Assembly: GCA_947446635.1 (NCBI GenBank)
Contig: CANFHF010000010.1
Location: 1-64,000, forward strand
Direction: 5' to 3'
DNA: 64,000 bases
From: Flavobacteriaceae bacterium
Lineage (GTDB): Bacteria; Bacteroidota; Bacteroidia; Flavobacteriales; Flavobacteriaceae
The notes under the pieces are model-generated. The model was not told the DNA's origin and ran no database searches. It saw only the letters and a list, made by a program, of their open reading frames with translations. Positions 16,594 through 37,017 of this stretch are shown here, piece by piece; position 1 is the first letter of the stretch, and every line of letters starts with the position of its first letter. The position numbers and the translations under genes are program-made.

Positions 16594-16598
16594 ATTTA

Positions 16599-18554
16599 TT
16601 ATTTCAAAGGGATAATGCCATATTTTTCAAAAGTTGTTTTTAATTGAAAATCATCTGAACGAAAAGGTTCGGCGGGAAATCCTTCTAAATTAAATAAATT
16701 ACATTTTGAAGCATCTGCAATCCAAGCAAAACGAACAAATAAGGGTTTACTAACTTCTTCACAAGAAAGAGTTATTTTATTATCCTTGAGTAATCCAATT
16801 GCCGAATAAAAAACGTGGTTTGTACCTGCAAATTCGAATCCATAAATTAAATTTGAATTGTTTGGAGAAGTCAATCCAGAGCCAATATTCTCAAAAGTAA
16901 CAATCGTTTTTCCTTCCCTATTTTCAAAAGATGTAAAAGTTGGCCCTTTACAAATCATTTTTTGATTATATAAATTATTTAAAGCTATTGAAGCCAACCT
17001 TTTTCCAACTTCTTGCTTGTTCGTTGGATGTATGCTGTCCGGGTTGCCTATGTCAGTGGTGATGACCATGCCCGTATTTGGGGTTTTTAATGCGTTGGTT
17101 TGCGCTTCTCGAAGTTCGGCCCACGGACATCCTTCATTGCTATTTCCTTTATTGGTATACGATGCTAATTGCACAAAATAAAAAGGAAATTGAGATTCCC
17201 ATTTTGAGCGCCAATCATTTATCAATAATGGAAATGCTTTGTTATATTGATACGCCCTCGGTACGTTTGATTCGCCTTGATACCAAATCACGCCTTTAAA
17301 TGCAAATGGAATTAAAGGGTTTATCAAGGCATTGAAACATAAGGACGGGAAATCATTTTCGTTGATACTGTTTTTGATTGATTCTACTTGAAATTTCCAT
17401 AAACCCGAAAGAATTTTTTGATTCATTCCAAATACTAATTTTAATGCATTTGGCTCTCCATAAATTCCGCCACCTCCACCATTATCGACCACTCGAATTG
17501 CAATACTATTTTCTCCCTCTTTTAGAATTCCAGTAGGTATTTCATACGTTCGTTTGGTATCCCAACCGTTTGTTTCTCCTATTTTTATTCCATTTATGTA
17601 AGTTATATCATTATCATCAATTGCGGGGATTTCAAGCGTGGCCTTTTCTTCTAGGTCCTTTTTTGAAATAGTAATATGTTTTCTTAACCAAACAATGCCG
17701 TCAAATTTCCCAAGACTTTGTTCTTCCCAAATTCCAGGCTGAATTAATTCAGGCCAATTCGTGTCGTCGAATAAAAGGTCTTTAAAAAACAAGTTGTTTT
17801 GATTTGAAAATTTAGTATTTTCAATCTTTTCAATCCGATTTTGTTCTTGTATTAATTTATTTTCTAATATTTTGTTTATCTCAACCTTTGGCATCTGAGC
17901 AATCATTTCTTTGAATTCATCACTAGACTCAAACCCTTCCCGACTTATCCAAGTTTCAATATTTGTTCCTCCCCAAGAGGCATTAATTAATCCAATTGGG
18001 ACATGTAATTTTTCTTGAAGTTGTTTTGCATAATAATAACCAATCCCAGTGAAATCAGCAACTGTTTTAGGAGAACAGACTTCCCAACTTGCCTTTTTGA
18101 AATTGGAAATTGGAAGAGAATTGGTTTCTTTAGGTATTTTTATATGACGAATGTTTGAAAAGTTGGCATTTTCAATTTCGCTTTTTGCATTGTCTGATTG
18201 CCCTACGGTCCATTCCATATTGGATTGACCGCTGCAAATCCAGACTTCTCCAACTAATATATTTTTTATTTGGATAGTGGTTTCACCTTCTATTTTTAGC
18301 TCATAAGGTCCGCCAGCGGTTTCGGAATCTAACCGAATTATCCATTTTCCAGTCTTATCGGCCTTTGTTATTTTTGTTTGATTGTGAAATGTTACTGTAA
18401 TTTTATCATTTGCTTTAGCCGAGCCCCAAACTGGAATTTTTACATTTCGTTGCAAAACCATATTGTCAGAAAAAATAGATGCAACAGAAATCTGGGCTTG
18501 TGTTTTATTTAAAAAACATAAAAGCAATGCTAAAAAAAAAGGTAGTGTTTTCAT
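16599..18554 (-). CDS. Sialate O-acetylesterase-like SGNH carbohydrate esterase (9-O-acetylesterase family)
   Basis: SIFSDNMVLQRNVKIPVWGSA, VWICSGQSNMEWTV, GLINASWGGTNIETWI, GVIWYQGESN, inserted carbohydrate-binding-like segment. Confidence 0.92.
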   Translation of the reverse strand: MKTLPFFLALLLCFLNKTQAQISVASIFSDNMVLQRNVKIPVWGSAKANDKITVTFHNQTKITKADKTGKWIIRLDSETAGGPYELKIEGETTIQIKNILVGEVWICSGQSNMEWTVGQSDNAKSEIENANFSNIRHIKIPKETNSLPISNFKKASWEVCSPKTVADFTGIGYYYAKQLQEKLHVPIGLINASWGGTNIETWISREGFESSDEFKEMIAQMPKVEINKILENKLIQEQNRIEKIENTKFSNQNNLFFKDLLFDDTNWPELIQPGIWEEQSLGKFDGIVWLRKHITISKKDLEEKATLEIPAIDDNDITYINGIKIGETNGWDTKRTYEIPTGILKEGENSIAIRVVDNGGGGGIYGEPNALKLVFGMNQKILSGLWKFQVESIKNSINENDFPSLCFNALINPLIPFAFKGVIWYQGESNVPRAYQYNKAFPLLINDWRSKWESQFPFYFVQLASYTNKGNSNEGCPWAELREAQTNALKTPNTGMVITTDIGNPDSIHPTNKQEVGKRLASIALNNLYNQKMICKGPTFTSFENREGKTIVTFENIGSGLTSPNNSNLIYGFEFAGTNHVFYSAIGLLKDNKITLSCEEVSKPLFVRFAWIADASKCNLFNLEGFPAEPFRSDDFQLKTTFEKYGIIPLK

Positions 18555-18617
18555 TTATTTGATTTATTTACAAAACATAAAAACAATACTAAAAAAAGGT
18601 AGTGTTTTTATTTGATT
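18505..18617. repeat. ~59-bp imperfect tandem duplication spanning the esterase start codon and the GH3 stop codon
   Basis: Copy A 18505-18564 and copy B 18564-18617 share cataaaa(g/a)caat(g/a)ctaaaaaaa..ggtagtgtttt..atttgatt. Confidence 0.85.
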
Positions 18618-20836: not shown

Positions 20837-20859
20837 TTGGGGGTAATTAGGATATGTAT

Positions 20860-22317
20860 TTAAAAAACTAAAGTTTGAATAGCATGTGGCAAAATAGTAA
20901 CCTGCGTAGCTTCAGTACCAATACATAAATAATAATTTAATTTTTTATCGCTTTGATTCATAACAATTGTAATTACTTTTCCGTCTTTGTTTATAAAAGA
21001 AGTAGTTAGTAATTGACTTCGACTAGCAATAGAACTAATTCGTTTTGCTTCTTTCGAAATAAATTTTGAAAAATGGCCAATAAAATAATACGACGGTGTG
21101 TAAATCAATTCCCCCGTTTTTGTATCTGCATGAATTGGTGAAAAACAAAAATTACCTACGTGATTTGGACCTCCATTTTCATCTAGCAATATGTTCCAAT
21201 CGGTCCAACCCACGGTGCCATTGTTGAAATCGTTTATCATCGAACGACCATATCGCTCTCCGTTTTTCCATAGTTGGTATTTATTTGCATCAAATTTTTC
21301 AACACAGCCTTCGGTAAAAAGGAGGTTCTTGTTGGGGTACATTTCGTGTGTTTTTCCAACATTTCCATACATCATATCGCCTCCGCTCCAGTTTTCATAC
21401 CAATGGTAGCCAATTCCCCATACATATTTATTGGCTTTAGCATCATCAAGAATTGTAGTTACTCGTTGCGAAATTAAATCTCTATTATGATCCCAGATGG
21501 TTATTTTTTTGTTGCCAAAGCCTGATTTTTTCAAAGTTGGACCAAGGTAATTTTTAAGAAAATCCCTTTCTTCTTCAGCCGAATAAATACACGATTCCCA
21601 TCGTTGTGTTGCCATTGGCTCGTTTTGAATGGTTAATCCCCAAATAGGAATACCTTCTTTTTGGTAAGCGTTTATAAACTTAACGTAATAATTTGCCCAT
21701 GATTGATAATATTCGGGCAACAGTTTGCCTCCGTTGAGTACAGAAGCATTGTCTTTCATAAAGGCAGGTGGAGACCATGGGCTTGCATATAGAGTTGCTT
21801 CTTCGCCTATTAGTTCCATTGCTTTTTTAATTAATGGTATTCTGAATTTTTTATCGTGATCAATTGAAAATGTTTTCAAATCTTTATCGCCTTCGGTAAC
21901 ATAAGTGTACCTATCGGAACTAAAATCGCAACTATGAATAGTAGTTCGTATCAGCGAATACCCAATCCCTTTCTCTTTAGAATAATAGGCATCAAGTAAT
22001 TCTTGTTGTTTGTTTTGAGGTAATTTTGCAAATACTTCGGCCGAAGCATCGGTTATTGCACCGCCAATTCCTAAAAAGGTTTGATATGTTTTATTAGGAT
22101 TTACAAAGACACAAAGTTGTGTTTCTAAAGGCTGATTGAGTTCTTTAAAAGTGAGATTGTCTGTTTTTGTTAATCTTAAGTTTGTACTATCAGCAGAAGT
22201 ATAAACAATTACGGTTCTGTTTTGTATAGAAAAGGATGTTCCTCCCGATTTTTTTTTCCCTTGAGAAAAAGAAACTAATGAAAGAATCAATAATAGGGAT
22301 AGTGTTATATTTTTCAT
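20860..22317 (-). CDS. Glycoside hydrolase family 30 (glucosylceramidase / beta-glucanase-like)
   Basis: FLGIGGAITDASAEVF, YASPWSPPAFMK, LTIQNEPMATQRWESC, LLFTEGCVE, GTVGWTDWNILLDENGGPNHV. Confidence 0.93.
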   Translation of the reverse strand: MKNITLSLLLILSLVSFSQGKKKSGGTSFSIQNRTVIVYTSADSTNLRLTKTDNLTFKELNQPLETQLCVFVNPNKTYQTFLGIGGAITDASAEVFAKLPQNKQQELLDAYYSKEKGIGYSLIRTTIHSCDFSSDRYTYVTEGDKDLKTFSIDHDKKFRIPLIKKAMELIGEEATLYASPWSPPAFMKDNASVLNGGKLLPEYYQSWANYYVKFINAYQKEGIPIWGLTIQNEPMATQRWESCIYSAEEERDFLKNYLGPTLKKSGFGNKKITIWDHNRDLISQRVTTILDDAKANKYVWGIGYHWYENWSGGDMMYGNVGKTHEMYPNKNLLFTEGCVEKFDANKYQLWKNGERYGRSMINDFNNGTVGWTDWNILLDENGGPNHVGNFCFSPIHADTKTGELIYTPSYYFIGHFSKFISKEAKRISSIASRSQLLTTSFINKDGKVITIVMNQSDKKLNYYLCIGTEATQVTILPHAIQTLVF

Positions 22318-22326
22318 TTTTATATT

Positions 22327-24063
22327 TTACCAAATGTAAGTTCCAACAGCACCCGAATTTAGTGTTGTTGTTATCCATTTTCCGTTGTGTTTTATGTTAA
22401 AATTTTCCGTTGTATAGCCATCATTTTCAATAATCAGTACTTTTTTGCCAGAAGGTGTTTTAAAAGCTACATTACTTAAATTACCACTCGTATTTGATGC
22501 AATTCTAATAGAACCATCTGGAACAAATTTCGATGCATGAGCAATAATATAATAGCTCACATTTCGAGCAACACTACCATTGGAAATAGTTAATGCACCT
22601 TTGCATTGAGTACATCCACCAGAAGTATGAGGTTCAAAAGAGGCATTGTTTGCTAAATTCCATTCTAATGCGTTTTTGCTCCAATTTCTCATGGAACCAA
22701 TAACAACATTTTTTGTATGCCATTTCAAATCTCCTCCAAAATCACCAGTTGAAGAAGTCCATTGTTCTGTAAAATAAACATTTTTATTTGGGAAAGCAGT
22801 ATGAACAGTTGTTAAAGCACTAATATCCCCACCGTATAAATGAAATGCCGAACCATCAACATAAGGATAGGCTGCAGCGTCACTTAATATGCTAATTGGA
22901 TAACTTGGGACGTCGCAATTGTGATCGTAACTTACGATTTTAGTAGTAATATTTTCATTTTGGAATGCTAATCCTAGTTTTTTTATAAAACTCAATTCTT
23001 GTGCAGCCGACATTGTCATACTTGGATTGTTATTTGGATTCAGAGGTTCGTTTTGAGGGCAAATGGCATCTATTGTAATTCCATTTGCTTGCATACCTTG
23101 AATGTATTTTACAAAGTAAGTGGCATACGAATTATAATAATTGACTGACAACGTGCTGCCAACAGAAGTGTAATTACTTTTCATCCAGGAAGGTGCTGAC
23201 CATGGCACAGCCATTAATTTTATATTTGGATTGATGAGAATAATTTCTTTAAGCAATGGAATTAAATTTGTCATATCTGGCGCAAGGCTAAACAGTAATT
23301 GACTTGTATCTGATTGTCCACTAGGTAAGTCATTATAGCTAAAAACAGTAGCATTCAAATCGGATGCGCCAATGCTAATCCTTAAGTAACTTATTCCAAT
23401 AGAATGGGTTGAATTGCCAAAAAGTTCCTGTAATAATTCTTGTTTTTTTGCTGGATTTAATGAGTTAATTAACTCGGCGCTTCCGCCTGTTAATGTATAA
23501 CCAAATCCATCAATTGTTTGAAAAGTTTGATTTTCATCAACGTTAATTGTTTGATAACTATTGACTGAAGTTCCAAATGCTTGAATTGTGTTTTGTTTTT
23601 GAAGTAATACCGATTGGTCTCCTTTTGTTAGCCAAATATCAACTTCACTAGCAAGAATTCCATTATCGAGGATTGTTCCAACACCAATTATCGGAGAGGT
23701 ATTACAGGTATTGTTTGATGTTACTGTACCTGTTATCGTAAATGTTTCTGTCGATTCTGTAATAGAGTCATTATTGGTTGGAATATTTACCGTTATTGAT
23801 GTTTGCCCTGCCAGAATTGTTTTTGTTATAACAGTGGTGGTAAAATCATCAGTTGTTGCGGTGTTAGGTGTCGTTATAAGGTTAATAGTAGTAGCAGTAG
23901 TACTGGTGTCAGTTAATGTTATTGTAAAAATCACATCGGCTCCTTCTGTAACAGGAGTACTTGTAATACTTATTATTGGCTTTAAAACAGGAGCTGCTTC
24001 TGCATTTGCTGAAGAGCATTTGGATAGAAAAGCAGTAAACGTTAAAAAAAGTAAAAGTTTCAT
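22327..24063 (-). CDS. Lipoprotein GH30 with N-terminal Calx-beta-like domain
   Basis: Lipobox FLSKCSS; ITSTPVTEGADVIFTITLTDTSTTATTINLITTPNTATTDDFT...TESTETFTITGTVT (Calx-beta-like); GH30 motifs DGFGYTLTGGSAELI, VPWSAPSWMKS, CPQNEPLNPN, YFTEQWT. Confidence 0.9.
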   Translation of the reverse strand: MKLLLFLTFTAFLSKCSSANAEAAPVLKPIISITSTPVTEGADVIFTITLTDTSTTATTINLITTPNTATTDDFTTTVITKTILAGQTSITVNIPTNNDSITESTETFTITGTVTSNNTCNTSPIIGVGTILDNGILASEVDIWLTKGDQSVLLQKQNTIQAFGTSVNSYQTINVDENQTFQTIDGFGYTLTGGSAELINSLNPAKKQELLQELFGNSTHSIGISYLRISIGASDLNATVFSYNDLPSGQSDTSQLLFSLAPDMTNLIPLLKEIILINPNIKLMAVPWSAPSWMKSNYTSVGSTLSVNYYNSYATYFVKYIQGMQANGITIDAICPQNEPLNPNNNPSMTMSAAQELSFIKKLGLAFQNENITTKIVSYDHNCDVPSYPISILSDAAAYPYVDGSAFHLYGGDISALTTVHTAFPNKNVYFTEQWTSSTGDFGGDLKWHTKNVVIGSMRNWSKNALEWNLANNASFEPHTSGGCTQCKGALTISNGSVARNVSYYIIAHASKFVPDGSIRIASNTSGNLSNVAFKTPSGKKVLIIENDGYTTENFNIKHNGKWITTTLNSGAVGTYIW

Positions 24064-24074
24064 AATTTTATTTA

Positions 24075-24935
24075 TTAGTAACCATAATTGTTATTTAAAT
24101 CTATTTCAACAAAAACCGGAAGATGGTCTGATGGATATTTTAAATCTTTTGAATCACTTAAGACCGCATATTTTATAACTTTATAATTTGTTTTTTTTGA
24201 TATAAAAATATAATCAATCAACTTAGTAACAGCTTCATCATGTTTGAAATTATTAAATGTTCCTGAAGGTCCAAATGGTTTTTCTTCTGAAATAGCACGG
24301 CTATCATCCATTACTTTTTTCAACGCAATAATCCTTGCGGTAGTAGGCTCTGAATTAAAATCACCCATAAATAGTACAGGGTATTTTTTGGAATTTAATG
24401 ATTCTATTTTTGAAAGAATAAGTTCAATTCCCTTGGTTCTAGCTTCTTCGCCTATATGGTCTAAATGGGTATTGAATACCCAAAAAGCATCTTTTGTTTT
24501 TTTATCTACAAATAAAGCATAGGTGCAAACTCTATTATAAGCAGCGTCCCAACCTTTTGAAATTTCGTTAGGAGTTTCAGAAAGCCAAAAAGTATTGGAT
24601 TCCTTTATTCTAAACCTTTCTCTTTTGTAAAATATAGAAGAGGATTCTCCTTTTCCAACCCCTTCTCTTCCAATTCCAACATTGTCATATTGAGTAAGAA
24701 GAGAGCTAATGTCAATTACTTGGTTTGGTTTTGCTTCTTGAATTCCAAAGATGTCTGGTTCGTAAAACTGGATTTGAGAAGCAAAAAAATCTTTACGATG
24801 TGTCCAATCATTTTCACCATCAACGGCTACATCAAGGCGAATGTTATAGGTCATCAATTTAATGGTTTGACAATTTACCGTCACGCCATTGTTAAGAACG
24901 ACTAGAAACACTATTAATTTATGGAAACACCTCAT
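24075..24935 (-). CDS. Exported endonuclease/exonuclease/phosphatase (EEP) family protein
   Basis: Hydrophobic N-terminus; KLMTYNIRLD, PDIFGIQEAKPNQ, FNTHLDHIGEEAR, FMGDFNSEP, YPSDHLPVFVEI. Confidence 0.92.
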   Translation of the reverse strand: MRCFHKLIVFLVVLNNGVTVNCQTIKLMTYNIRLDVAVDGENDWTHRKDFFASQIQFYEPDIFGIQEAKPNQVIDISSLLTQYDNVGIGREGVGKGESSSIFYKRERFRIKESNTFWLSETPNEISKGWDAAYNRVCTYALFVDKKTKDAFWVFNTHLDHIGEEARTKGIELILSKIESLNSKKYPVLFMGDFNSEPTTARIIALKKVMDDSRAISEEKPFGPSGTFNNFKHDEAVTKLIDYIFISKKTNYKVIKYAVLSDSKDLKYPSDHLPVFVEIDLNNNYGY

Positions 24936-25048
24936 CTTTTTCTAAATTTTCCATTGATATTTCTGTTTTTTAAAAATGCAAATCAAAATTAACAGTCGAA
25001 AAAAAGTAACGTACTTTAAAAGCACAACTTTTTCATTACATGCAGATT

Positions 25049-26545
25049 TTAATAACCAGGATTTTGTGTTAAATTCGGATTATTCTCCAAAACAGCTTGC
25101 GGCACAGGCAATAATAAATGATTGACATCTAAATTATTAGCATATGGCATCGGTATTTGCACACTTATATCTGGTGTAGGATTATACGTTTGCTGAGACA
25201 AAATTTCAATTGATTTTCCTTCTCTTTTCAAATCAAACCATCTATGCCCTTCAAATGCTAATTCCACAAATCGTTCTTTAAGAATTTTATTAATTGCATC
25301 GTCTTCGGATACTGCAGGCTCCACATTTGCTAATGAAACTCTAGTTCTTATTTGGTTTACCAATGTCATTGCACCAGTAAGATCTCCGGTATGTGCTAGA
25401 GCCTCTGCTTTTAATAGTATAATGTCGGCTAGACGAAAAATATAGAAATTTTGAGATCCATCTGTAGCACGCATTCTCCAAGGATTTGGGAATTTAGTAT
25501 AAGATGTCCAATACGGATCTGCGAATGTTGTAGGGAAAAGTTTAATTGTTGAAAGTTTCCTTTTGGCATCTAATGCGAGGTTTAATGTATGTGATGGGGT
25601 ATTGAATTTTTTCCAATTGCTTCCAAGAAATACATTAGTACACCAACCGTTTATTCCCCCTACATCTAGGGGATTACCATTTACCTCCCAAATAGATTCT
25701 GCATTTCCATCATGAAGATTGTTAAACAGGTCATCAAAATCAGGCATTAGACTATATTTACCACTATTAATTACCGCATTCGAATATTGAATACATTTTG
25801 CCCAATCAGGATTTGGCATGGTAGCATATACTTTTGCTAATAAAGCATTGGCAGCACCTTTACTGGCTCTGAATTTACTCGCTGCAGCTGTAGTCGATCT
25901 AGGTGCTTTAGCTAAAGCCACTTCACAATCTGCAATTATAGCATCATATACTTCTGAAACAGGTTTTCTTACGGGATATAATGAAGGATAAAGTTGGTCG
26001 AAATTGTCGTTATTTATTGAGGTTACTGTTTCGTTTACCAATGGGAAATCTCCCCATGTTTGCACCGCTTGAAAACGAGTCATGGCTCTGATTAAAGAGG
26101 CTTCCCCAATCATTTCATCTTTTCTTTCTTGAGATAGTCCCTCTGCCTTATCCGCATAATTGATCACTAGATTACACCTTTTTACAAAATCATTCAGCCA
26201 ATTCCAATCTCTAGCAACAACATAATCGGTAGCAATGGTTCGGTATTCGTCTATTTGAAAAAAGTCATCGCCATCAGCACCGGAATACGCTACATCAGAT
26301 CCGGCATCGCCAAGAAAAAAATAGTCAAACTGCCAATATTCAATCCCAAAAGAATTATTACAGGATTTCATGGCTAATTCCGCTTCGACGGCGTTGCTGA
26401 TTAATTGTTCGGTTTGAGGCGGGCTGATTTCGTCCGTAATGGGCTCCGTGTTTAATAGATTATCCGTGATATCACTACAAGAAGTAAGAAGCAAAATGCT
26501 TACGCTAAAAAACACTATTTTTTTATATATATTTGATTTTTTCAT
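25049..26545 (-). CDS. susD: RagB/SusD family nutrient-uptake outer-membrane lipoprotein
   Basis: Lipobox LLTSCSD; RAMTRFQAVQTWGDFPLVNE, FRLADIILLKAEALAHTGD, ERFVELAFEGHRWFDLKREGK. Confidence 0.96.
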   Translation of the reverse strand: MKKSNIYKKIVFFSVSILLLTSCSDITDNLLNTEPITDEISPPQTEQLISNAVEAELAMKSCNNSFGIEYWQFDYFFLGDAGSDVAYSGADGDDFFQIDEYRTIATDYVVARDWNWLNDFVKRCNLVINYADKAEGLSQERKDEMIGEASLIRAMTRFQAVQTWGDFPLVNETVTSINNDNFDQLYPSLYPVRKPVSEVYDAIIADCEVALAKAPRSTTAAASKFRASKGAANALLAKVYATMPNPDWAKCIQYSNAVINSGKYSLMPDFDDLFNNLHDGNAESIWEVNGNPLDVGGINGWCTNVFLGSNWKKFNTPSHTLNLALDAKRKLSTIKLFPTTFADPYWTSYTKFPNPWRMRATDGSQNFYIFRLADIILLKAEALAHTGDLTGAMTLVNQIRTRVSLANVEPAVSEDDAINKILKERFVELAFEGHRWFDLKREGKSIEILSQQTYNPTPDISVQIPMPYANNLDVNHLLLPVPQAVLENNPNLTQNPGY

Positions 26546-26561: not shown

Positions 26562-29525
26562 TTAAAATCCAGCTTTTAAACCGAAAATAAATGTTCGTAC
26601 TTGAGGATAGGTGCCATAATCAATACCTTGTCCCGTTCCTGTATTTCCTCCAAAAGCACTAACTTCTGGATCAAATCCTGAATATTTCGTCCAAGTAATT
26701 AGATTTTGCCCTGTGGCATATAATTTTAAAGAACTTAGGCCTAAAAACAATTTTTTAAAATTATAGCCTAAGGTCGCCGCTTTAATCCGAATGTATGATC
26801 CATCTTCAATCCACCGGGTAGAGTTTGCGGTTGCGGCAATTCCTTGAAAATTAGTTGGCCCTGCTTTAGGAACATCGGTTATTTGTCCCACAGTGGTCCA
26901 CCTGTCTAAAACAGCAACTGATTGGTTTTTGTTGTCCTTCATTCCTTCTAAATCAATGCGAGAGGCATTGAAAATATCGTTTCCTTGACTACTAGTTACT
27001 AGGACATCTAGCAAAAATCCTTTATAAGAAAAGGTGTTAGTGATGCCAAAAGTATATTTTGGCATGGCATTTCCAATTATGGTTTGATCACTCCCAGGTT
27101 TAATAAAACCATCTACATTAAGGTCTTTAAATTCTAAAATTCCAGTTGTTGAATTTACTTCTTTCACCACATAACCATAAAAATTACCCAAAGATTGCCC
27201 TTTTACTATTTTATTTACGTTGGCATATCCTTTGTAAATTACATCAGAATATTTTCCCATTTCCAATACTTTATTTTCAATAAAGGAAATATTAAAGTTT
27301 GTGTTCCAGTTGAAATCGCCTTTAATATTAGTTGTGCTTAATGCCAATTCCAATCCTTTGTTTTCAAGTTTTCCTCCATTATATAAATAGGGGATATTGA
27401 AAACACTAACATTATTAAATAAATTAGAAGTTATTTTTTTGAAGGCGTCAAGATTTAATCTTACCCGATTATTTAGCAAGGACAAATCTAATCCCACATT
27501 GAAATCGGAGGTGGTTTCCCAAGTTAAATCGGTGTTGATATAGTTTTGTAAGGTTCCGTGATCGTCACCAAGTAATCCAAATGAGGAATATTCGCTAACG
27601 CCATTAATATTACCTGATTGACCCCAGCCACCTCTTATTTTTAATTCTGAAATGATACGGTTGTTTTTTAGAATATTTTCGTTTGATACAATCCAAGCTG
27701 CGGAAACCCCAGGAAAGTAACCCCATTTATGATTTTTAGCCAATTGAGACGCTCCGCTGTTTCTATAGACCATATTCAAAATATACTTTTCTTTGAAATT
27801 ATAAGTGACTCTACCAAAATAGGAAATATAATTTTTTTCTCTTGCAATGGTGTCTGAAGACTGTCGGTTTAAAAACATCATTTGTGAAATATCCAATTTC
27901 CTTAAATCGGTTGCGAAACCGGTTCCTTCAATTTTCAGTTGGTCATATCGTTGTTTTTGAATGCTACTTCCCGCCATTAAACTAATATCATGATTACTGG
28001 ATTTTATAGCATAATTTAAAGTGTTTTCTATATTCCAATTCCTATTTACAGCGTTGTGTTCTCGGCCAATCCCTTTCGTATTGGCTGGGTTAGAAGCTTC
28101 TCCACGACCATAATTAGATCGGTAACTATCTACAAAAAAATCGTAAACACTTTTATAAAGATCTACGGATGATGCAGGTTTCCATATTAAGTTTTTAGCC
28201 AAGGTAATATCAAGGCTTAAATTAGCCAAATATCGAATGGTTTTGTTGTCTTCTTGTCGGCTTTGAAAAGAAATCGGATTTTCTAATGAAGCTACTGGAT
28301 TGGCAGCAAATTGACCTGGTTCTTGACCATTAGCCACGGCTCCACCTACAAGCCCATCTGCATAAATGGGTAAGAAAGCTGGAGTTGTTAAGGCGCTTAA
28401 AATAACACCGCCTTGATTGGCGCTATTGTTGTCGCTAGTGTTGTTCAGCATTGTCTGAATTAGATTCATATTGACATGGGCTTTCAGCCAAGGCGCTGCA
28501 TTCACATCTACGTTTACTCTTCCGGACAATCTAGAGAAATTAGAAGGCGATACAATTCCTTTGGTGTCTTGATAGCCTAATGAGGCAAATGCCTTTATGT
28601 CTTCGCTTCCTCCTGAGTATGAAAAATCATAGTTTTTATCTATTCCAGTTTGAAACACTAAATCTCGCCAATTGCTATTTATTCCGACATATTTAGGATC
28701 ATCTATATAGCCAACATATCCTGTAGAAATACCGCTCATTAATGTTCTGTATTGTTCTGTATTCAAAACACTAATGTTTTTTACAATTTTTGAATTTCCT
28801 AAATAAGATGTAAAACTGAAGGTGTTTTTATTGACTTTTCCTCTTTTTGTAGTGATAATTACAACGCCTGCGCTTCCATTAACACCGTAAATTGCCGTAG
28901 CAGTTGCATCTTTTAATATTTGGATGTCTACAATGTCATCCGTGCTAATACCAGTACTGTCATAGGTTTGAACGCCATCAATAACAAACATTGGATTGTT
29001 CCCAGAATTGATAGAGCTTAAACCACGAATTCTAATATCTAAACCAACTCCTGGTTTTCCTGAAGGCTGGATCACGTTTACCCCAGCCGCATTTCCTTGT
29101 AAAGCTTGACCAACATTAAATAACGGACGGTCATCAAAGGCTTCTGATCGAACGGTTGAAATGGCATTGGTGATATTCTTTTTCTTTTGTGTGCCGTATC
29201 CAACGTTGATGACAACTTCTTCTAATTTATTGGTTTCTTCGGTAAGTGATATATTTAGTGTTTGTGATTTAGTCACTTTTACCTCTTTAGAAACAGATCC
29301 AATATTTGAAAATAGTATAATATCGTTTGCGTTTACTTTTATAGAATAATTCCCATCTAAACTAGAGGAAACGCCTTTTTTACTATTTTTAATACTAACA
29401 TTCGCACCTGGAATGCCTAATTTTGTTTTAGAGTCAGATACAATTCCTTTAATTTCAATTGTTTGCGAATTTGCAAAAGCAACAATAAAAAGAAAAAGTA
29501 ACCCTAGATAATTTTTAAATTTCAT
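26562..29525 (-). CDS. susC: SusC/RagA family TonB-linked outer-membrane protein
   Basis: Carboxypeptidase-regulatory-like N-domain, VVINVGYGTQKKKNITNAIS, plug (VIDGVQTYDSTGISTDDIVDIQILKDATATAIYG), C-terminal beta-strand FGLKAGF. Confidence 0.97.
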   Translation of the reverse strand: MKFKNYLGLLFLFIVAFANSQTIEIKGIVSDSKTKLGIPGANVSIKNSKKGVSSSLDGNYSIKVNANDIILFSNIGSVSKEVKVTKSQTLNISLTEETNKLEEVVINVGYGTQKKKNITNAISTVRSEAFDDRPLFNVGQALQGNAAGVNVIQPSGKPGVGLDIRIRGLSSINSGNNPMFVIDGVQTYDSTGISTDDIVDIQILKDATATAIYGVNGSAGVVIITTKRGKVNKNTFSFTSYLGNSKIVKNISVLNTEQYRTLMSGISTGYVGYIDDPKYVGINSNWRDLVFQTGIDKNYDFSYSGGSEDIKAFASLGYQDTKGIVSPSNFSRLSGRVNVDVNAAPWLKAHVNMNLIQTMLNNTSDNNSANQGGVILSALTTPAFLPIYADGLVGGAVANGQEPGQFAANPVASLENPISFQSRQEDNKTIRYLANLSLDITLAKNLIWKPASSVDLYKSVYDFFVDSYRSNYGRGEASNPANTKGIGREHNAVNRNWNIENTLNYAIKSSNHDISLMAGSSIQKQRYDQLKIEGTGFATDLRKLDISQMMFLNRQSSDTIAREKNYISYFGRVTYNFKEKYILNMVYRNSGASQLAKNHKWGYFPGVSAAWIVSNENILKNNRIISELKIRGGWGQSGNINGVSEYSSFGLLGDDHGTLQNYINTDLTWETTSDFNVGLDLSLLNNRVRLNLDAFKKITSNLFNNVSVFNIPYLYNGGKLENKGLELALSTTNIKGDFNWNTNFNISFIENKVLEMGKYSDVIYKGYANVNKIVKGQSLGNFYGYVVKEVNSTTGILEFKDLNVDGFIKPGSDQTIIGNAMPKYTFGITNTFSYKGFLLDVLVTSSQGNDIFNASRIDLEGMKDNKNQSVAVLDRWTTVGQITDVPKAGPTNFQGIAATANSTRWIEDGSYIRIKAATLGYNFKKLFLGLSSLKLYATGQNLITWTKYSGFDPEVSAFGGNTGTGQGIDYGTYPQVRTFIFGLKAGF

Positions 29526-29822: not shown

Positions 29823-29957
29823 ACAATATTAGCCTTTGTTTAACTATAAAGGCAGTAAGTTTACTACACTTGAATTACGCTAGTAAAAACAGACTCATTA
29901 CTTGTTGATTACTTTTATTTTTTTAAATAATTGTTTTTCAATACTTTAATTCAAAAT
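29823..29957 (-). promoter_or_regulatory. Copy 1 of duplicated PUL cis-element upstream of susC
   Basis: Shares 21-bp identical core actacacttgaattacgctag (29863-29883) plus gttgatta..taaataattgtttttcaata block with 33883-34015. Confidence 0.75.
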
Positions 29958-29996
29958 AGGCTAATAAAAAAATAATTTCATTTTTTACCGAAAGAT

Positions 29997-30278
29997 GAAT
30001 TTAAAACAGTTAAAAAACATCCGCCCTTTTTATTGGGGCTACAAAAATACCAAGTACCATCACGAATACAAGAGGGTGATATGATTATTTAATAGGAATC
30101 CAAAGATCAAAAATAATATAAAGATCAAAATCTAGAATTTGTAGACTATAACTTATAGAAAGCAGCTATTAATTTACGGAATCAAATAGATTACGATTTT
30201 AGTTTTCTTCACCGAGAATGTTATCTAGTACTGATCCAAATGAGCCACTAAAATGTTGATGAAAATTAGTGCATTTGG
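29997..30278 (+). pseudogene. Decayed fragment of a paralog of the triple-tyrosine/HTH regulator (34105-37017)
   Basis: 29997-30126 aligns to about 34851-34983 (e.g. atttaataggaa..caaag.tcaaaaataata); 30130-30278 aligns to about 36062-36222 (gctatt.attt.c.gaatcaaa...tacgattt.agttttcttcacc); stops and frameshifts, about 1.1 kb internal deletion. Confidence 0.8.
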
Positions 30279-30498
30279 TTATCCCAATCATTATCAACCA
30301 TTTTAGTACAATGACTTTGAATACCATGTGGTTTTTTGGTTTGTGTAATTTAAATAAGACCTCTTTCAATAGCGCTAACGATTTATGATTAAATGTCACA
30401 CTGACTACGCTAACTACGCTGATTATAATTTGTGTGTTCATTATTCATAACGATGATTTTTGTATATCGCTATTCAGGATGGGATATTAATAAACAAA

Positions 30499-30526
30499 AA
30501 AAAGGCTGTCCTTTCGGACAGCCTTT
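30499..30526 (-). terminator. Strong rho-independent terminator after the T9SS glycan-binding gene
   Basis: Perfect 11-bp stem aaaggctgtcc-tttc-ggacagccttt with T-tract on the minus strand. Confidence 0.88.
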
Positions 30527-30555
30527 CTCTTTTAATAAGAGTATCTAGGATACGA

Positions 30556-33500
30556 TTATTTTTTAATCAATCGTAGTGTTTTAACTTGTGCATCTTGAGT
30601 TACAATTACATTGTAAATACCTCGAGCATAGTTAGCCCCTATTTGAGAATCAGATTTTAGCTGACGTTGTTCGATTGAACGACCCAACATATCATAAACC
30701 TGTACTCCAAATGGTTTTCTATTACTAGAATTAATTTTAAATCCTTCAGTAGATGGATTTGGATAAGCCACCACTTTGAATACACTAGCAACTGGCGCCA
30801 CTTTTGCTCCAGCAGCACAAGTCACAAGTTCTGTCAATTTCAATACTGTACCTTTTGCAGTTTGTCCTGCACCATTGATAGATTTGATATCTAGTGTCAA
30901 TTTTGTTGAAACACTTACACTTGCATAAACAACTTTAAATGTCAAATCAGAGGTAGTTAAGATATTTGCCGAAGCACCTGAAACACCATTATCAGAAGTA
31001 ACAGTAGATCCAACAGGTCCTGTAATTAAATACTTAATAGCTTTTGCATTTGCTGTAATGGTATAGTTAAATCCTGTACCTATATTACAAACACTAAGTG
31101 AACCTGTAACTTTAGGCGCTGTTGGTAACACTCTTTTTAAAGGCAATACTTTAGCAACTGAAGTTCCTGCTCCGTTTACAGCATGCGCATTGATGACCAA
31201 TGACGTAGTAGCTGGAAGAACGTTTTTTAAATTTACGTGTATCACATTAGAAGTACTTGTATAAAACCCTGTTTGAGCATTTACACAAGTTGCATCAGAT
31301 GAAATAATTGTAGTAGGAAGTACCCATTTGTATGAAGTAGGTGTTAATCCTGCTGTAGTAGCCGGTGTAGCAGTCAAGGTAAGCTCTGTGTCAACTCCAG
31401 AATATAAACTTACATCAGTAATTGCTGTAGTTGCAGTACCATTAGTAAGTACTAAAGTTTTTAATACAGCTGGTATAGCTCTTGTAAAAGCAACACTTTC
31501 TCCATTAAGTAATGAACCACAACCCAAAGCATTAAATGACTTAACAGTAACCTTAGCATACGCTGTGTTTAAATCAGACGCACTAAACTTAACATAGATA
31601 AATGCATCAGTACTAGTTGTACTAGAGTTAGTACCTACACCATTTGCAGCAGTTCTAACAATTCCAGTAGGCAATGTCCAATCATAAGAACTTGCTCCAG
31701 CAGTAGCTGTTAATGTTAATGCTGTATTAGTTCCAACATAACATCCTACGGCAGTAATTGCTGTAGTTGCAGTACCATTAGTAAGTTTTAAAGCTCCTGA
31801 TTTAGCTTTTAAAGCAAGTCCTGTAACTGTTACCAAAAGTCTTGGACTTTCTGTTCCAGCACCTAACTTTTGAGAAACATAATATTTCACAGCTTTTGCA
31901 GTTGCCAAAGGAGCAGTAGGAAGCGCAGTTACTCCTGTTAAAGTAGTATACCATTTTAAAGAGTATCCTGAAAGTGCAGTAGCTGCTCCAGTAACTGGAG
32001 AACCAACACATGCACCTGCACCTGCAGTAGGAGCAGCTGGGGTTGTACCCTCGTCTACTGTCCCATTACAGTTGTCATCAATTCCGTTAGCTGTGTCTGT
32101 AGCACCTGGGTGTACAGCAGCTTTAGTATCATCGCAATCAGTATTGTTTGCTGAATATCCTGCATGAGTTCCTGAAGTATAAAATACAACAACATCAGCA
32201 GCAACATCACCATAACCATCAGCATCAGCATCAGCATAATAACTAAAAACAGCAGATGTAGCGAAATTATAAGCTAATGTGTTTCTATTAAAAGAAATGT
32301 CATAAACCCCTGAAGGTACAACTATATTACTTTCACCACCACCAGTTCCTATTGGAAATAAACATGGTTTTACACTTCCTCCAAAAGAATGAGCCCAATC
32401 ATGGTTGTCTCTGAATTTTACATCACCTGCTAAAACTTGATGCATAACAGAATAATTGATTCCGTCAGTAGAAGTTAAATCGATATCTGGACCACCATTA
32501 CCCCAATCATTGTGTCCTCCAATCATTGAAACGGTTATATTACTAAAGCTATATACTCCAGTACTTACTGTGAAATCTACATTATAAACAGCTTCAGTAA
32601 GTGAAATAAGAGCTCCGTTTTGAGTTCCAGTTCCCGAAAGAGATGCACTTGACCATTGGTTTTCTGTTCCGTCTTGGATAAATTTTGCAGTATCGGCACC
32701 ACATACTAAACTTTTTGTAGAATAATGCTCTCCGTCTGTAGTGTCTAATGCTATATCAGTCGCTCCAATTGCAGCTCCTGAAACTTTAATTATTGGATAA
32801 GGAGCTAATAATGTAAAAGCATATTCTCCAGTACTTCTATTAAAAGCTATATCATATCTTCCAAATTCAATTACCAAATCTTTAGATGAGCCAGAATTTA
32901 TTGCGATTCCTGAAGCTTCAGGAATGTTATTAAACTCTTCTGTCTTTCCAAATTGTACATTCCAACTATGATTGTCAGTAATTTTAAAGTGACAATACGG
33001 ATCTCCCCATGCAGATTTAAAAGTGTAGTTTGATCTGGTAAAATGTACCCCATCGGTTGTTGCTAAATCAACAGTTCCACCCCAACCACTTCCAACGAAG
33101 TTACCAATCATCCCTACAACAACTGGTTCAAAAACGAATTCTGGATTGCTGCTTCTGGTGAAGAAAACGTTATACGTTCCTGCAGGTACAGGAATTGAAG
33201 CTCCTGCTACAACTGGTCCTTCAGGAAAAGGGCCTCCCCATGTAAGATTTGTTCCAGCTTGAGCAAATGCACCATCTCCTCCTCCAAAAGTCACACTTTG
33301 CTTGTTGTAAGCAACTCCATTTGCAGTATTCATAATAATAGCTGCATCTAAACCACCTCCTGTTATGTTAACTGTAGGGTTAGGATTAACACCTGCAGTA
33401 AAAGCATACGCTTTAGTAACAATATTATAAGTTACAGACCAAAATCCTGGTGTAGCTATAATATTATTATTAATAGTTGCAGTTGGGTTTGCTGGATCAA

Positions 33501-33801
33501 TAGGATCCTTCAAGGTAGTATTAGCGCCTGCAATACCATTCGGGAATCCCGGAGCAGCAGTTGCTGTGCTAAAACCATTAGTTAAGTCCCAATTACCATT
33601 TTCGGAAAATTTAATTTGTCCGTCATTGATAATTTCAAAATTTGTTTTGGTGAAATTCTCCCCATCAGTAGAGGTTAGTGCCACCGCTCCGGGTTGATTC
33701 CAACCCCCAGTACCCGTCCCGGTAATACTTACCGTTGTTGTTTGGGCGTTCATGCAAAGGCCAAATACCAATGCAATCAATAAATGCAATTTTTTTTTCA
33801 T
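30556..33801 (-). CDS. Large modular T9SS-secreted protein: SusE/F-like repeats, MopE-like metal-binding motif, Ig-like repeats, T9SS type A sorting domain
   Basis: Signal peptide; five degenerate repeats (e.g. MIGNFVGSGWGGTVDLATTDGVHFTRS..., MIGGHNDWGNGGPDIDLTSTDGINYSV...); YYADADADGYGD...DCDDTKAAVHPGATDTANGIDDNCNGTVDEG; C-terminal VAYPNPSTEGFKINSSN...VQVYDMLGRSIEQ...GIYNVIVTQDAQVKTLRLIKK. Confidence 0.88.
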   Translation of the reverse strand: MKKKLHLLIALVFGLCMNAQTTTVSITGTGTGGWNQPGAVALTSTDGENFTKTNFEIINDGQIKFSENGNWDLTNGFSTATAAPGFPNGIAGANTTLKDPIDPANPTATINNNIIATPGFWSVTYNIVTKAYAFTAGVNPNPTVNITGGGLDAAIIMNTANGVAYNKQSVTFGGGDGAFAQAGTNLTWGGPFPEGPVVAGASIPVPAGTYNVFFTRSSNPEFVFEPVVVGMIGNFVGSGWGGTVDLATTDGVHFTRSNYTFKSAWGDPYCHFKITDNHSWNVQFGKTEEFNNIPEASGIAINSGSSKDLVIEFGRYDIAFNRSTGEYAFTLLAPYPIIKVSGAAIGATDIALDTTDGEHYSTKSLVCGADTAKFIQDGTENQWSSASLSGTGTQNGALISLTEAVYNVDFTVSTGVYSFSNITVSMIGGHNDWGNGGPDIDLTSTDGINYSVMHQVLAGDVKFRDNHDWAHSFGGSVKPCLFPIGTGGGESNIVVPSGVYDISFNRNTLAYNFATSAVFSYYADADADGYGDVAADVVVFYTSGTHAGYSANNTDCDDTKAAVHPGATDTANGIDDNCNGTVDEGTTPAAPTAGAGACVGSPVTGAATALSGYSLKWYTTLTGVTALPTAPLATAKAVKYYVSQKLGAGTESPRLLVTVTGLALKAKSGALKLTNGTATTAITAVGCYVGTNTALTLTATAGASSYDWTLPTGIVRTAANGVGTNSSTTSTDAFIYVKFSASDLNTAYAKVTVKSFNALGCGSLLNGESVAFTRAIPAVLKTLVLTNGTATTAITDVSLYSGVDTELTLTATPATTAGLTPTSYKWVLPTTIISSDATCVNAQTGFYTSTSNVIHVNLKNVLPATTSLVINAHAVNGAGTSVAKVLPLKRVLPTAPKVTGSLSVCNIGTGFNYTITANAKAIKYLITGPVGSTVTSDNGVSGASANILTTSDLTFKVVYASVSVSTKLTLDIKSINGAGQTAKGTVLKLTELVTCAAGAKVAPVASVFKVVAYPNPSTEGFKINSSNRKPFGVQVYDMLGRSIEQRQLKSDSQIGANYARGIYNVIVTQDAQVKTLRLIKK
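31416..31786. repeat. Pair of identical 35-bp direct repeats inside the T9SS gene (31416-31450 and 31752-31786)
   Basis: cagtaattgctgtagttgcagtaccattagtaagt at both positions; encodes LTNGTATTAIT. Confidence 0.9.
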
Positions 33802-33882
33802 AATAAATAATTTAAGTTAAAAATAGGTTAGTGATTCATAATCGTCCTCGTACGTATGTAAAATAAACGGTATGATATCATT

Positions 33883-34015
33883 GCAATATTAGGATTTGTT
33901 TAACTACAACAACGTAAGGGCACTACACTTGAATTACGCTAGAAAAAAAAATCGCTACGTGTTGATTACTTTTTTTTTTTTAAATAATTGTTTTTCAATA
34001 GTTTAATTTAAAATA
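33883..34015. promoter_or_regulatory. Copy 2 of duplicated PUL cis-element, between the divergent T9SS gene and regulator
   Basis: Core actacacttgaattacgctag at 33922-33942; gttgattactttt...taaataattgtttttcaata from 33961. Confidence 0.75.
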
Positions 34016-34104
34016 TAATTAAATGATATCTTAAATTAATAAAGAGTACATTTGTTTTACCTACAGAATTAATTTAAACCCGATTAAACAAAATATCCCC
34101 AGAT

Positions 34105-37017
34105 ATGCCTAAACATTGTATATATAATTTGTTTCGAATAGTACTTGCTATTGGATTGTTTTATTCTTCGATAGTAGTAGCTCAAACTAAGCCCATTAGC
34201 GATGAGATTGAAAATAAGTTAAGATCACCAAAAGTTGTTCGTTACAATAGAAATGATTTTAATGCTGATCCTCAGTTTTGGACCATGTGTGAAAATGATG
34301 ACAGAACATTGATTTTCGGAAATAATGACGGTGCAATAGTATTTGATGGGGAGTATTGGAAAAAAGTTGTTTTGCCTAATAATTCGTCTATTAGAAGTTT
34401 AGTTAAAACAAAAGAAGGTACAATTTATGCTGGTGGATATAATGAGTTGGGTACTTTACAAAAGAATAAGTTCGGGAATTATTTTTACAAGTCCTTGCTG
34501 TCCAAATTTCACTTGGAAAATAAAAACATAGAAAACCTTTGGCAAGTACATCAGTTTAATGACCTTATTATATACAGGGCTTTTAGTGAGCTTATTGTTA
34601 TTAATGGCAACACAGTTTCGCAACTTAGCGCTAATAAAGCCTTTGTTTATTCTGGACGAGTAAATGATAATTATTTCGTTCAAGATTCGGATTTTGGAAT
34701 TTATAAACTAGATGTCAAAACGATGACGCTAGAACTTGTGTTTGAAGTAAATTCCATTTCAAATGAAGAAATTGCTTCAATCCTTCCAACTTCTGATCTA
34801 AATACAATAACCCTTATTGCAAAGTCAGGAAATGTATATGCAGCTAATATTAATTCTAAAACAGTTGTAAAAAAATACAATCTTTTTAATGGCGGCAGAA
34901 AGGACCAAGTAACCTTTGGGATACAAGATGAGAATAAAGACTATTTAATAGGAACTCAAAGTTCAAAAATAATAAAAATAACCAACTCTGGAGCAATACA
35001 ACAAGGAACTACTACTTTTTCTGGGCTTTCAAATGCAGCCATTCATTTTCTTTTTCAAACTAAAAACCATACTACTTGGGTGTTGCAAAATAATGGATTG
35101 AGTTTTATAGATTATAAATCTCCTTTCGCCTCTGTTTTTGATCAAGCGTCTGTTTATGATATCCTGATAAAAGATAATATTATATATACCGCGACCAATA
35201 CAGGCGTGTATTTTGCAAATAATAATGGGAGTTTTAATTTTAATAAAGTTGATGACTTACAGGGACAATCGTGGGCGGTTCAAAATTTTGAAGATGCCGT
35301 AATTATTTCACACGATACGGGACTTTACGAATTTAGTAATGGTACGGCTAAAAAAATTGGCAAAGAAACTGGGTTTTGGAAACTCACAAAAATAAAAGAT
35401 AGAAAAGGCATGTATTTGGGTTCTAATTATAATGGTTTGTTTCTTATTGAAAAAAGGGATAATCACTGGGATATAAAAAATAAAATAATTGGGTTTGATG
35501 AATCAACAAGAGATTTGTTAGCCGATTATGAACCGAATACCTATTGGATTTGCCATGGCTATAAAGGGGTTTATAAGATTCATATCAACAACGATTATTC
35601 TCGTGTTGATGTTGTGGATCATTTTACGGATCAAAACGGATTTAAATCACGATATAATATAAATGTTTTTAATTGGAATACTAAAATTGTTTTCACGACC
35701 AATACCGGCATTTATTTTTTTAATGCCCATACGAATAGGTTTGAACTATTTGAACCTTTAAACAAACTTTTTGATGCTTCAAAAAACACTAGAAAAATAA
35801 TTCAAACTAAAGATAAAACATGGTTCATACAAGATGATGAGGTGGGCTATTTTTTACTTAATCAAAAAAAATTAAATAAAGATTTGTTTCTTAACTTAAA
35901 AGGAAGTTTCAATAGAGGAATGGAATGCATCTATCCTTTAGCCAACAATAAAGTATTATTTGGTACTAATTCGGGTATTTTTCAATATAATTTAGACCAA
36001 CATCAAAACAAGCAAATCTTCCCGACCTTAATTAACCAAATAACATATACTCAAAATCGGAAAGTAGCATTTGTAGAACTTAATTCCAATAAATCCGCTA
36101 TTGATTTGCCGAATCAAACCGATATATTACGATTTGAGTTTTCTTCACCAACAATGCTATCAAGCACGGAAACGAATTATAGCTATAAACTTGAAAATAT
36201 TGATGAAAATTGGTCCGTTTGGCAGAAAAGTGCCTTTAAAGAATACACCCATTTACGACCAGGAAACTATACTTTTGTTGTAAAGAGTAGAAACTTAGCG
36301 GGACTTATAGGTAAAGAAACTAGATTTGAATTTACAATTTTACCTAAATGGTACGAAACAAACCTTGCCTATATCCTATATCTAATAGGGGTGTTTTTGC
36401 TAATTAAATATAGTATAAAATATGTTAATAAGAAAATAGCCTTTGAGCGAATGAAGTCTCAAGCTGAAATAAAAAAAACACAACAACTGTTAGCATTAGA
36501 GTTTGAGAAATTAGCCTTAGATCATGAAAATGAAGAGATTAGTAAAGAAAAATTAAATCTAGAAGTAGATGTTATTGATAAAAGTAAAGAATTGGCCAAT
36601 TACACCCTTTTATTAAGTCATAAAAAGAAAATATTTAGTGAATTACAAACCGATTTAAAAGAATTACGCGAGCTGCTAAAAAGTGATGAATCTAGAAGGA
36701 AAATAACTGAAATTTTCCAAAAATTAAATCAACATCGAATAGGAGAAGAATTTAATGAAATATTTGATGTTAATTTTGAAAAAATAAATCATAACTTTTT
36801 TGAAATATTGAAGCAAATGGATCCCTCGTTCACAAAACGAGAATTAAGTCTTTGCGCATTTATTAAAATGGATTTGACGAATAAAGAAATATCACCTTTA
36901 TTGAACATTTCCATTCGAGGAATTGAAACGGCAAGATATAAAATTAGAAAAAAATTGAAGCTTTCACATGATGACAACTTCATCTCTTTTTTAGAAAGTT
37001 TAGCTATGGAGGAATAA
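34105..37017 (+). CDS. Membrane-spanning PUL regulator: periplasmic sensor propeller, triple-tyrosine (Y_Y_Y) domain, one TM, coiled coil, LuxR-like HTH; no kinase domain
   Basis: YSYKLENIDENWSVWQKSAFKEYTHLRPGNYTFVVKSRNLAG (Y_Y_Y), TM LAYILYLIGVFLLIKY, C-terminal FTKRELSLCAFIKMDLTNKEISPLLNISIRGIETARYKIRKKLKL. Confidence 0.92.
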   Translation: MPKHCIYNLFRIVLAIGLFYSSIVVAQTKPISDEIENKLRSPKVVRYNRNDFNADPQFWTMCENDDRTLIFGNNDGAIVFDGEYWKKVVLPNNSSIRSLVKTKEGTIYAGGYNELGTLQKNKFGNYFYKSLLSKFHLENKNIENLWQVHQFNDLIIYRAFSELIVINGNTVSQLSANKAFVYSGRVNDNYFVQDSDFGIYKLDVKTMTLELVFEVNSISNEEIASILPTSDLNTITLIAKSGNVYAANINSKTVVKKYNLFNGGRKDQVTFGIQDENKDYLIGTQSSKIIKITNSGAIQQGTTTFSGLSNAAIHFLFQTKNHTTWVLQNNGLSFIDYKSPFASVFDQASVYDILIKDNIIYTATNTGVYFANNNGSFNFNKVDDLQGQSWAVQNFEDAVIISHDTGLYEFSNGTAKKIGKETGFWKLTKIKDRKGMYLGSNYNGLFLIEKRDNHWDIKNKIIGFDESTRDLLADYEPNTYWICHGYKGVYKIHINNDYSRVDVVDHFTDQNGFKSRYNINVFNWNTKIVFTTNTGIYFFNAHTNRFELFEPLNKLFDASKNTRKIIQTKDKTWFIQDDEVGYFLLNQKKLNKDLFLNLKGSFNRGMECIYPLANNKVLFGTNSGIFQYNLDQHQNKQIFPTLINQITYTQNRKVAFVELNSNKSAIDLPNQTDILRFEFSSPTMLSSTETNYSYKLENIDENWSVWQKSAFKEYTHLRPGNYTFVVKSRNLAGLIGKETRFEFTILPKWYETNLAYILYLIGVFLLIKYSIKYVNKKIAFERMKSQAEIKKTQQLLALEFEKLALDHENEEISKEKLNLEVDVIDKSKELANYTLLLSHKKKIFSELQTDLKELRELLKSDESRRKITEIFQKLNQHRIGEEFNEIFDVNFEKINHNFFEILKQMDPSFTKRELSLCAFIKMDLTNKEISPLLNISIRGIETARYKIRKKLKLSHDDNFISFLESLAMEE

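Follow-up and report, generated by a model that had tools for sequence, protein, structure and literature searches.

Predicted operator-promoter function of a duplicated element beside a SusR-like regulator gene in a flavobacterial PUL

The described systems closest to the locus considered here are the SusR-like regulons of Bacteroides (SusR, SusR2, SusR3, i.e. BT3309, and SusR4), whose sites are predicted to lie 67 or 77 bp apart, and the HTCS regulators with their kinase, receiver and AraC domains, whose sites are ~21 bp apart (Ravcheev et al. 2013, PMC3878776). A beta-1,6-glucan PUL of B. thetaiotaomicron, BT3309-BT3314, has also been described (PMC5481569). SusR-like one-polypeptide sensors are little studied, and the literature searched holds a single description of operators for them, namely the Bacteroides prediction.

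In the window, by which we mean the whole stretch of 64,000 nucleotides of Flavobacteriaceae DNA under analysis, a repeat of ~110-135 bases precedes two sugar-uptake transcription units, with a further copy before a third, distant gene, and this repeat very probably serves as binding site and promoter for the product of the neighbouring regulator gene, REG (Table 1). Like SusR, REG unites a membrane sensor and a C-terminal HTH in a single polypeptide and is encoded beside a SusCD PUL, and the predicted operators, like those of SusR, carry two directly repeated sites across a long spacer upstream of PUL genes. In contrast to the Bacteroides SusR-like sites, the spacing of the boxes is 32-34 bp (33 bp for the paralog group), each box consists of two half-sites separated by 11 bp, and the HTH of REG is recognised as LuxR/GerE. 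HTCS operators, too, are direct repeats arranged in tandem ahead of susC-type genes; the locus differs from them both in the 32-34 bp spacing and in a regulator devoid of kinase, receiver and AraC domains. The switch is of a known kind, its box spacing being one for which the literature searched offers no earlier description. With BT3309-BT3314 the window PUL has in common a SusR-type regulator, SusCD, a surface glycan-binding protein, GH30 and GH3, and the best solved relative of its GH30 at 22327-24063 is BT3312 (5ngk, E 4.6e-72). It is, however, larger, with a second GH30, an EEP-fold protein, a SASA esterase and a GH2, its substrate being predicted from the genes, and it differs also in its T9SS-secreted binding protein and its two operator copies.

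Table 1. Coordinates of the repeat copies, their predicted parts and the surrounding genes in the window.
Feature	Coordinates	Strand	Remarks
Copy A, predicted operator-promoter	29823..29957	-	upstream of susC; 83% of columns identical to copy B
Copy A distal box GTAATCAACAAGTAAT	29897..29912	-	from sequence; 34 bp to proximal box
Copy A proximal box GTAATTCAAGTGTAGT	29863..29878	-	from sequence; within 21-bp core
Copy A -7-like box TAATATTG	29824..29831	-	conserved position; predicted start ~29819, leader ~294 nt
Copy B, predicted operator-promoter, ancestral	33883..34015	-	between REG and T9SS gene
Copy B distal box GTAATCAACACGTAGC	33954..33969	-	from sequence; 32 bp to proximal box
Copy B proximal box GTAATTCAAGTGTAGT	33922..33937	-	from sequence; half-sites invariant
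Copy B -7-like box TAATATTG	33884..33891	-	conserved position; predicted start ~33879, leader ~78 nt
Possible REG promoter, perfect TAnnTTTG (TACATTTG)	34047..34054	+	from sequence, this locus
REG, SusR-like sensor-regulator	34105..37017	+	Pfam, translation, ortholog group
Second-REG remnant	29992..30278	+	divergent from susC; internal deletion, stops, frameshifts
Intrinsic terminator 3' of T9SS gene	30496..30531	-	16-bp stem, GAAA loop, U tract
SusE/F-like repeat protein, T9SS sorting domain	30556..33801	-	Por_Secre_tail, MopE motif
susC, first gene of main PUL operon	26562..29525	-	TIGR04056 1.4e-219
Remaining PUL: susD, EEP-fold protein, two GH30, GH3, SASA esterase, GH2, hydrolase	14051..26545	-	Pfam

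The repeat formed by copies A and B is real and not a product of chance: 114 of 130 aligned bases agree (83% of columns), whereas shuffled sequences averaged 46% and did not exceed 56%. An initial annotation had described two copies with an identical 21-bp core, a flanking block, a two-part block, near-identical spacing and otherwise unmatched intergenic surroundings, and reading the sequence bears out this picture together with the coordinates assigned to both. The core ACTACACTTGAATTACGCTAG (+ strand, 29863-29883 and 33922-33942) is the same in A and B, which also both contain the TTTGTTTAACTA block and the GTTGATTACTTTT...TAAATAATTGTTTTTCAATA block, the spacing of the blocks differing by indels of 2-3 bp only. 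Agreement falls to 51% of columns over the 100 bp downstream and to 50% over 89 bp on the upstream side, values that, given the shuffled baseline, show the rest of the two intergenic regions to be indeed unmatched. The same annotation had named recurrence of the core at many unrelated loci as evidence that would count against its reading, and this is not what is seen; allowing up to three mismatches, the core occurs at only three places genome-wide, A, B and a weaker copy C on another contig (core at G000:C3:132214-132234) with an arylsulfotransferase gene downstream, while the reversed core gave no match in the same whole-genome search.

All three copies lie upstream of transport or secreted-protein genes, with the same orientation and position relative to the gene. 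Several separate, A+T-rich copies of ~130 bp could also suggest a MITE-like mobile or structural repeat or an RNA leader element, an explanation that we regard as highly improbable: the copies are only three, all oriented and placed alike with respect to their genes, the ancestral location is fixed across species, the element is upstream of the predicted start, and nothing relevant is known to Rfam, a search of the region yielding no family match that overlaps the element and a sole sub-threshold match outside it.

What is conserved across species extends beyond the 21-mer to a unit of ~107 bp, comprising four GTA half-sites and a -7-like box. The plan is that of two boxes built as direct repeats (GTAnnN6GTAnn) at a spacing of 32-34 bp, followed at a nearly fixed distance by the -7-like TAATATTG; the half-sites fall at 0, 11, ~32 and ~43 bp and hence roughly on one helix face, and both GTA of the proximal box are invariant among 18 elements. 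In A and B the -7-like box has one mismatch to the Bacteroidetes sigma-A motif TAnnTTTG, its position being nearly fixed in the orthologs. A scan of the region for the sigma-70 consensus found sites no more frequent than in shuffles, as is expected in the Bacteroidetes, a phylum with another type of promoter. The -7 box is placed at -12 to -5 relative to the start (PMC9723704).

The association of the element with REG is apparent across genomes. In all 12 other Flavobacterium genomes found to have a REG ortholog the element adjoins the regulator gene, with one strong match each as against three in the window genome; no strong match was found in 239 other sampled genomes, and among 250 sampled Flavobacterium genomes strong matches are confined to carriers of REG. 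The position of copy B is the same in all orthologous loci, in which no second operator was found. A loose core pattern gave only scattered two-mismatch matches in relatives, and a profile model was used instead. Trained on other species only, the model ranks B, A and C first, second and third in the window genome, and without any window sequence it assigns E 8.7e-17 to copy B and E 5.3e-13 to copy A. The element is kept where the downstream genes have changed to LamG/T9SS surface proteins (G192), and before SusCD of 35-40% identity (G023, G152, G313 and G032).

REG consists of a signal peptide, a Reg_prop/Y_Y_Y periplasmic part, a TM and a LuxR-type HTH, the Pfam matches being Y_Y_Y, a weak Reg_prop and the GerE HTH only, and the signal peptide and TM having been read by eye in the translation. 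It fits the SusR-like plan, in which one polypeptide joins a periplasmic sensor, a TM and a C-terminal HTH and has neither a kinase nor a receiver domain, and its assignment to this class is by architecture and PUL context. Phylogenetic footprinting supports the proposal of the initial annotation that the repeat is an operator-promoter module with the adjacent HTH regulator as candidate binder, and we hold with considerable confidence that it is the operator and core promoter of REG, the binding itself being predicted. Counted against this reading are the 34 bp, rather than 32 bp, box spacing of copy A and the degenerate distal box and weak score (0.005) of copy C, which make the strength of these two copies uncertain. 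Another transcription factor might instead bind a conserved promoter, the element hitchhiking with REG in the common divergent intergenic region; the boxes are A+T-rich and, as REG and the element are always adjacent, location cannot fully separate their effects. We consider this unlikely, since no sampled genome showed the element in the absence of REG, copies A and C are away from the intact REG, A carrying a REG remnant, and paralogous REGs share the geometry, each with its own box.

The repeats, the arrangement of the boxes, the link with REG, the REG remnant and the terminator are seen in the sequence itself; for REG as the regulator, we infer its ligand, its binding and activation and the start sites as follows. 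REG would sense a periplasmic oligosaccharide, its probable source, judged by gene content, being a beta-1,6-glucan or a related beta-glucan; its cytoplasmic LuxR-type HTHs would occupy the two direct-repeat boxes, with their four GTA half-sites, between about -43 and -90 relative to the predicted start, and would recruit sigma-A RNA polymerase to the suboptimal -7 box. The ancestral copy B would then drive the SusE-like/T9SS gene, which probably encodes a surface glycan-binding protein; at its N-terminus this protein shows homology to the SusE-like gene that orthologous PULs carry. The strong terminator after this gene (-24.7 kcal/mol, z -6.2) makes copy A the likely promoter of susC, with the rest of the PUL, separated by that terminator from the copy B transcript. 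The regulon probably also includes the distant arylsulfotransferase gene, which would be controlled in the same way via copy C. Alternatively, copy A might be a dead relic of duplication, with susC read through from copy B, as presumably in related species; a regulator pseudogene adjoins it, its boxes are 34 bp apart and orthologous loci have no second operator. This we find improbable, given that copy A is 83% identical to B as against 50-51% in both flanks, that its half-sites and -7 box are all intact, and that the terminator intervenes between the T9SS gene and susC.

Two parts of the pseudogene match the window REG in blastn (29992-30136 against nt 742-888, E 2e-15; 30111-30278 against nt 1934-2118, E 9e-20), and tblastx also finds it. 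Since copy A borders this decayed REG copy, it probably arose within a duplicated REG-operator module, of which the spare regulator would have decayed and the operator been kept, the intact REG serving all copies. No REG remnant was found upstream of copy C, so that C arose in a separate event, in which the 5' part of the T9SS gene was also involved. The copy A leader gave no SusE remnant on comparison with SusE-like genes, and its 30-aa ORF (MRNSDEMWVEVCSWAIISLIGTWVVFLLIS) no match in plasmids. The window would keep successive steps of regulon growth (a duplicated regulator-operator block, a decayed spare regulator, a retained operator and a third copy before a new gene) and offer a clear example of how such switches spread. 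There is, in our estimate, an even chance that, more generally, Flavobacterium SusR-like regulators bind as pairs of dimers to tandem direct-repeat boxes whose spacing is three helical turns (six to seven being predicted in Bacteroides), and that the regulon of this lineage expanded through duplicated operator blocks. One block, copied along with the regulator that later became a pseudogene, would have supplied susC with a promoter, and the other, copied along with the 5' end of the SusE-like gene, would have captured the sulfotransferase.

Two Flavobacterium paralog groups have a sharply defined operator plan, with boxes three turns apart and a near-fixed distance to the -7 box, and yet different box sequences, a combination that makes an HTH-to-box code testable, from which regulon prediction across flavobacterial PULs would follow. 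Upstream of the ~30% paralogs, GTAN8GTA gave two isolated single matches and no tandem pairs, and at least some of these paralogs have another box. The paralogs of REG follow the same plan with a different box, the spacing being 33 bp in 37 of 38 pairs.

The two copies of the element, one before susC (copy A) and one before the T9SS gene (copy B), lie where the initial annotation had placed them and share, on the minus strand, 114 of 130 aligned bases (83% of columns). The remainder of the intergenic regions is, as was also claimed, unmatched, with flank identity of 50% upstream and 51% downstream against a shuffled mean of 46% and maximum of 56%. The genome search proposed there for the 21-bp core, run with up to three mismatches over the 2.40-Mb assembly (93 contigs, 99.97% complete), gave three sites, copies A and B and a weaker copy C on another contig, while the reversed core gave none in the same assembly at the same tolerance. 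Copy C is followed by the gene for a 663-aa arylsulfotransferase-domain protein (PF05935, 1.4e-80), which over residues 1-181 shows 80% identity to the T9SS protein's N-terminus; the leaders of B and C agree in 70% of columns and their first 546 coding bases in 87%.

Coordinates of the features discussed (G000 is the window's own assembly)
Feature	Location	Detail
Copy A	29823-29957 (-)	before susC
Copy B	33883-34015 (-)	before T9SS gene
Copy C core	G000:C3:132214-132234	core search
TAnnTTTG of the regulator gene (REG)	34047-34054	perfect; read from sequence
REG fragment 1	29992-30136	REG nt 742-888; 73%, 2e-15
REG fragment 2	30111-30278	REG nt 1934-2118; 71.5%, 9e-20
Terminator	30496-30531	-24.7 kcal/mol, z = -6.2
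Predicted susC leader	29526-29822 (-)	about 294 nt from copy A
GH30 gene	22327-24063	
Endonuclease/exonuclease/phosphatase-fold gene	24075-24935 (-)	
Fourth SusE-like N-terminus (L101, L103)	G000:C3:162706-163251	
Short contig with second T9SS gene (L102)	G000:C63:1-4981	

Divergent from the T9SS gene is the SusR-like sensor-regulator gene (REG), whose product has a signal peptide, weak Reg_prop, Y_Y_Y, a TM segment and a LuxR-type HTH, a domain search of it finding no kinase and no receiver. In a genome sample with one genome per species, many of them MAGs, REG orthologs occur in 12 other genomes among 300 of Flavobacterium (52-79% identity), the closest paralogs beyond this group being at ~30%. 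The order REG, SusE-like gene, susC, susD holds at nine orthologous loci examined; the SusE-like gene is missing in L051-L054 and L056, and L055 diverges further. Since the element stands in the REG-adjacent intergenic region at every orthologous locus, and the SusE-susC gaps of the other loci yielded none, B is, on this comparison, the ancestral site and A particular to the window lineage. An 18-element profile matched strongly once in each ortholog genome and three times in that of the window; in 250 sampled Flavobacterium genomes its matches at E<=3.5e-7 fell only in the 11 REG carriers, and a further four, partial and weaker (3e-4 to 8e-4), resemble noise, E-values from the shortened calibration being rough. 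As this profile included its own training sequences, a second was made from 15 non-window sequences only, and on the window genome it ranked B first (8.7e-17), A second (5.3e-13) and C third (0.005). The element also stays beside REG in G192, although LamG/T9SS genes and a different SusCD follow downstream, and in G023, G152, G313 and G032, although their SusCD is only 35-40% identical. The association of element and REG is correlational.

Counting from the first base of CTAGCGTAATTCAAGTGTAGT as position 0, most elements carry GTA half-sites at -27, -16, +5 and +16 and a -7-like box from +51. Both proximal GTA are unchanged in 18/18 elements; the first half-site is absent in L058 and L047, copy A is stretched (-29, -18, +5, +16; box at +52), and in the four distant genomes the distal pair sits at -29 and -17/-15. 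Each of the 12 non-redundant elements has GTA pairs at a distance of 11 bp, and over the same set pairs 32 bp apart also number 12. With the flavobacterial -7 box spanning -12 to -5 (PMC9723704), the half-sites would fall at about -47, -58, -79 and -90 from the predicted start, a usual place for an activator. REG has a TAnnTTTG of its own and may therefore be transcribed independently; in B. thetaiotaomicron the substrate induces the rest of the PUL and not BT3309 (PMC5481569). For Bacteroides, Ravcheev et al. 2013 (PMC3878776) predicted about 21 bp between the sites of HTCS operators and, for SusR-like operators, direct repeats whose sites are 67 or 77 bp apart; theirs is the only description of SusR motifs found among open-licence papers, an earlier account elsewhere being possible. 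The REG elements share the direct repeat but not the spacing, which is 32-34 bp, and are thus candidate SusR-type operators of a variant form.

A different box, TGATGTGTTTTTGT, forms a direct repeat 33 bp apart at L026 and L036, where a SusR-like paralog stands divergent from a susC-like gene. When 200 Flavobacterium genomes were searched with the spacing free to vary between 19 and 49 bp, 38 pairs came up, of which 37 had a spacing of exactly 33 bp and the remaining one 43 bp, longer by about one turn; the control in these genomes gave zero. At the 12 loci read, the distance past the repeat is 36-37 bp to the start of a TAnnATTG box and 82-84 nt to the start of a gene encoding a product that opens like a TonB-linked receptor; 11 of the 12 have a divergent gene with alike product beginnings, taken to be the regulator by analogy with L026 and L036. 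The HTHs of the two regulator groups are ~41% identical, and the groups appear to have a common operator plan with separate box sequences. In the window's own assembly, one short contig (L102) carries a second SusE-like T9SS gene (585 aa) and then a susC 83% identical to that of the window, with the TGATGTGTTTTTGT repeat, at its 33-bp spacing, upstream in place of the GTA element; it represents either another PUL, controlled by a paralogous regulator, or co-binned DNA, contamination of the assembly being 1.78%.

The origin of copy A can be sought in the ~1-kb gap that separates susC from the T9SS gene and holds two collinear REG fragments, divergent from susC and carrying stops and frameshifts. 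Among 15 REG genes that of the window scores highest against them (188), the maximum of 60 shuffles, on four of the 15, being 109. Because this remnant lies beside A as REG lies beside B, A is best read as the operator surviving from a duplicated REG-operator block, and its retention while the surroundings fell to background identity argues that it works.

A strong terminator parts the T9SS transcript from susC, which makes A the likely susC promoter. In the orthologous loci checked, the SusE-susC gap has a weaker hairpin and no second operator, and susC there presumably relies on readthrough. A terminator-like hairpin stands between the SusE-like gene and susC in every locus checked (window, L048, L050, L057-L060, L102), its stem outside the window being CCCTTAC/GTAAGGG or similar; it could possibly be an attenuator that fixes how much binding protein is made relative to transporter. 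Elsewhere in the assembly a fourth gene, with an open frame of 896 aa, encodes a SusE-like N-terminus (36% identity), and a 41-base piece of the T9SS terminator region turns up again near it at 90% identity. Within the predicted susC leader, a 30-codon ORF encodes a hydrophobic peptide, MRNSDEMWVEVCSWAIISLIGTWVVFLLIS, with no homologs in the one collection searched.

Upstream of the susC operon is encoded the 1081-aa T9SS protein (SusE/F-like, MopE, Por_Secre_tail), and the minus-strand operon itself runs susC, susD, endonuclease/exonuclease/phosphatase-fold, GH30, GH30, GH3, SASA esterase, GH2 and hydrolase. The closest solved relative of the tabulated GH30 is BT3312 (5ngk), the endo-beta-1,6-glucanase from the BT3309-BT3314 PUL of B. 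thetaiotaomicron; that PUL, like the window's, has a SusR-type regulator (PMC5481569), and the likeliest substrate would therefore be a beta-1,6- or mixed beta-glucan. The endonuclease/exonuclease/phosphatase-fold protein is an odd partner for a glycan PUL; its gene follows susD in most orthologous loci as well, at 66-85% identity.
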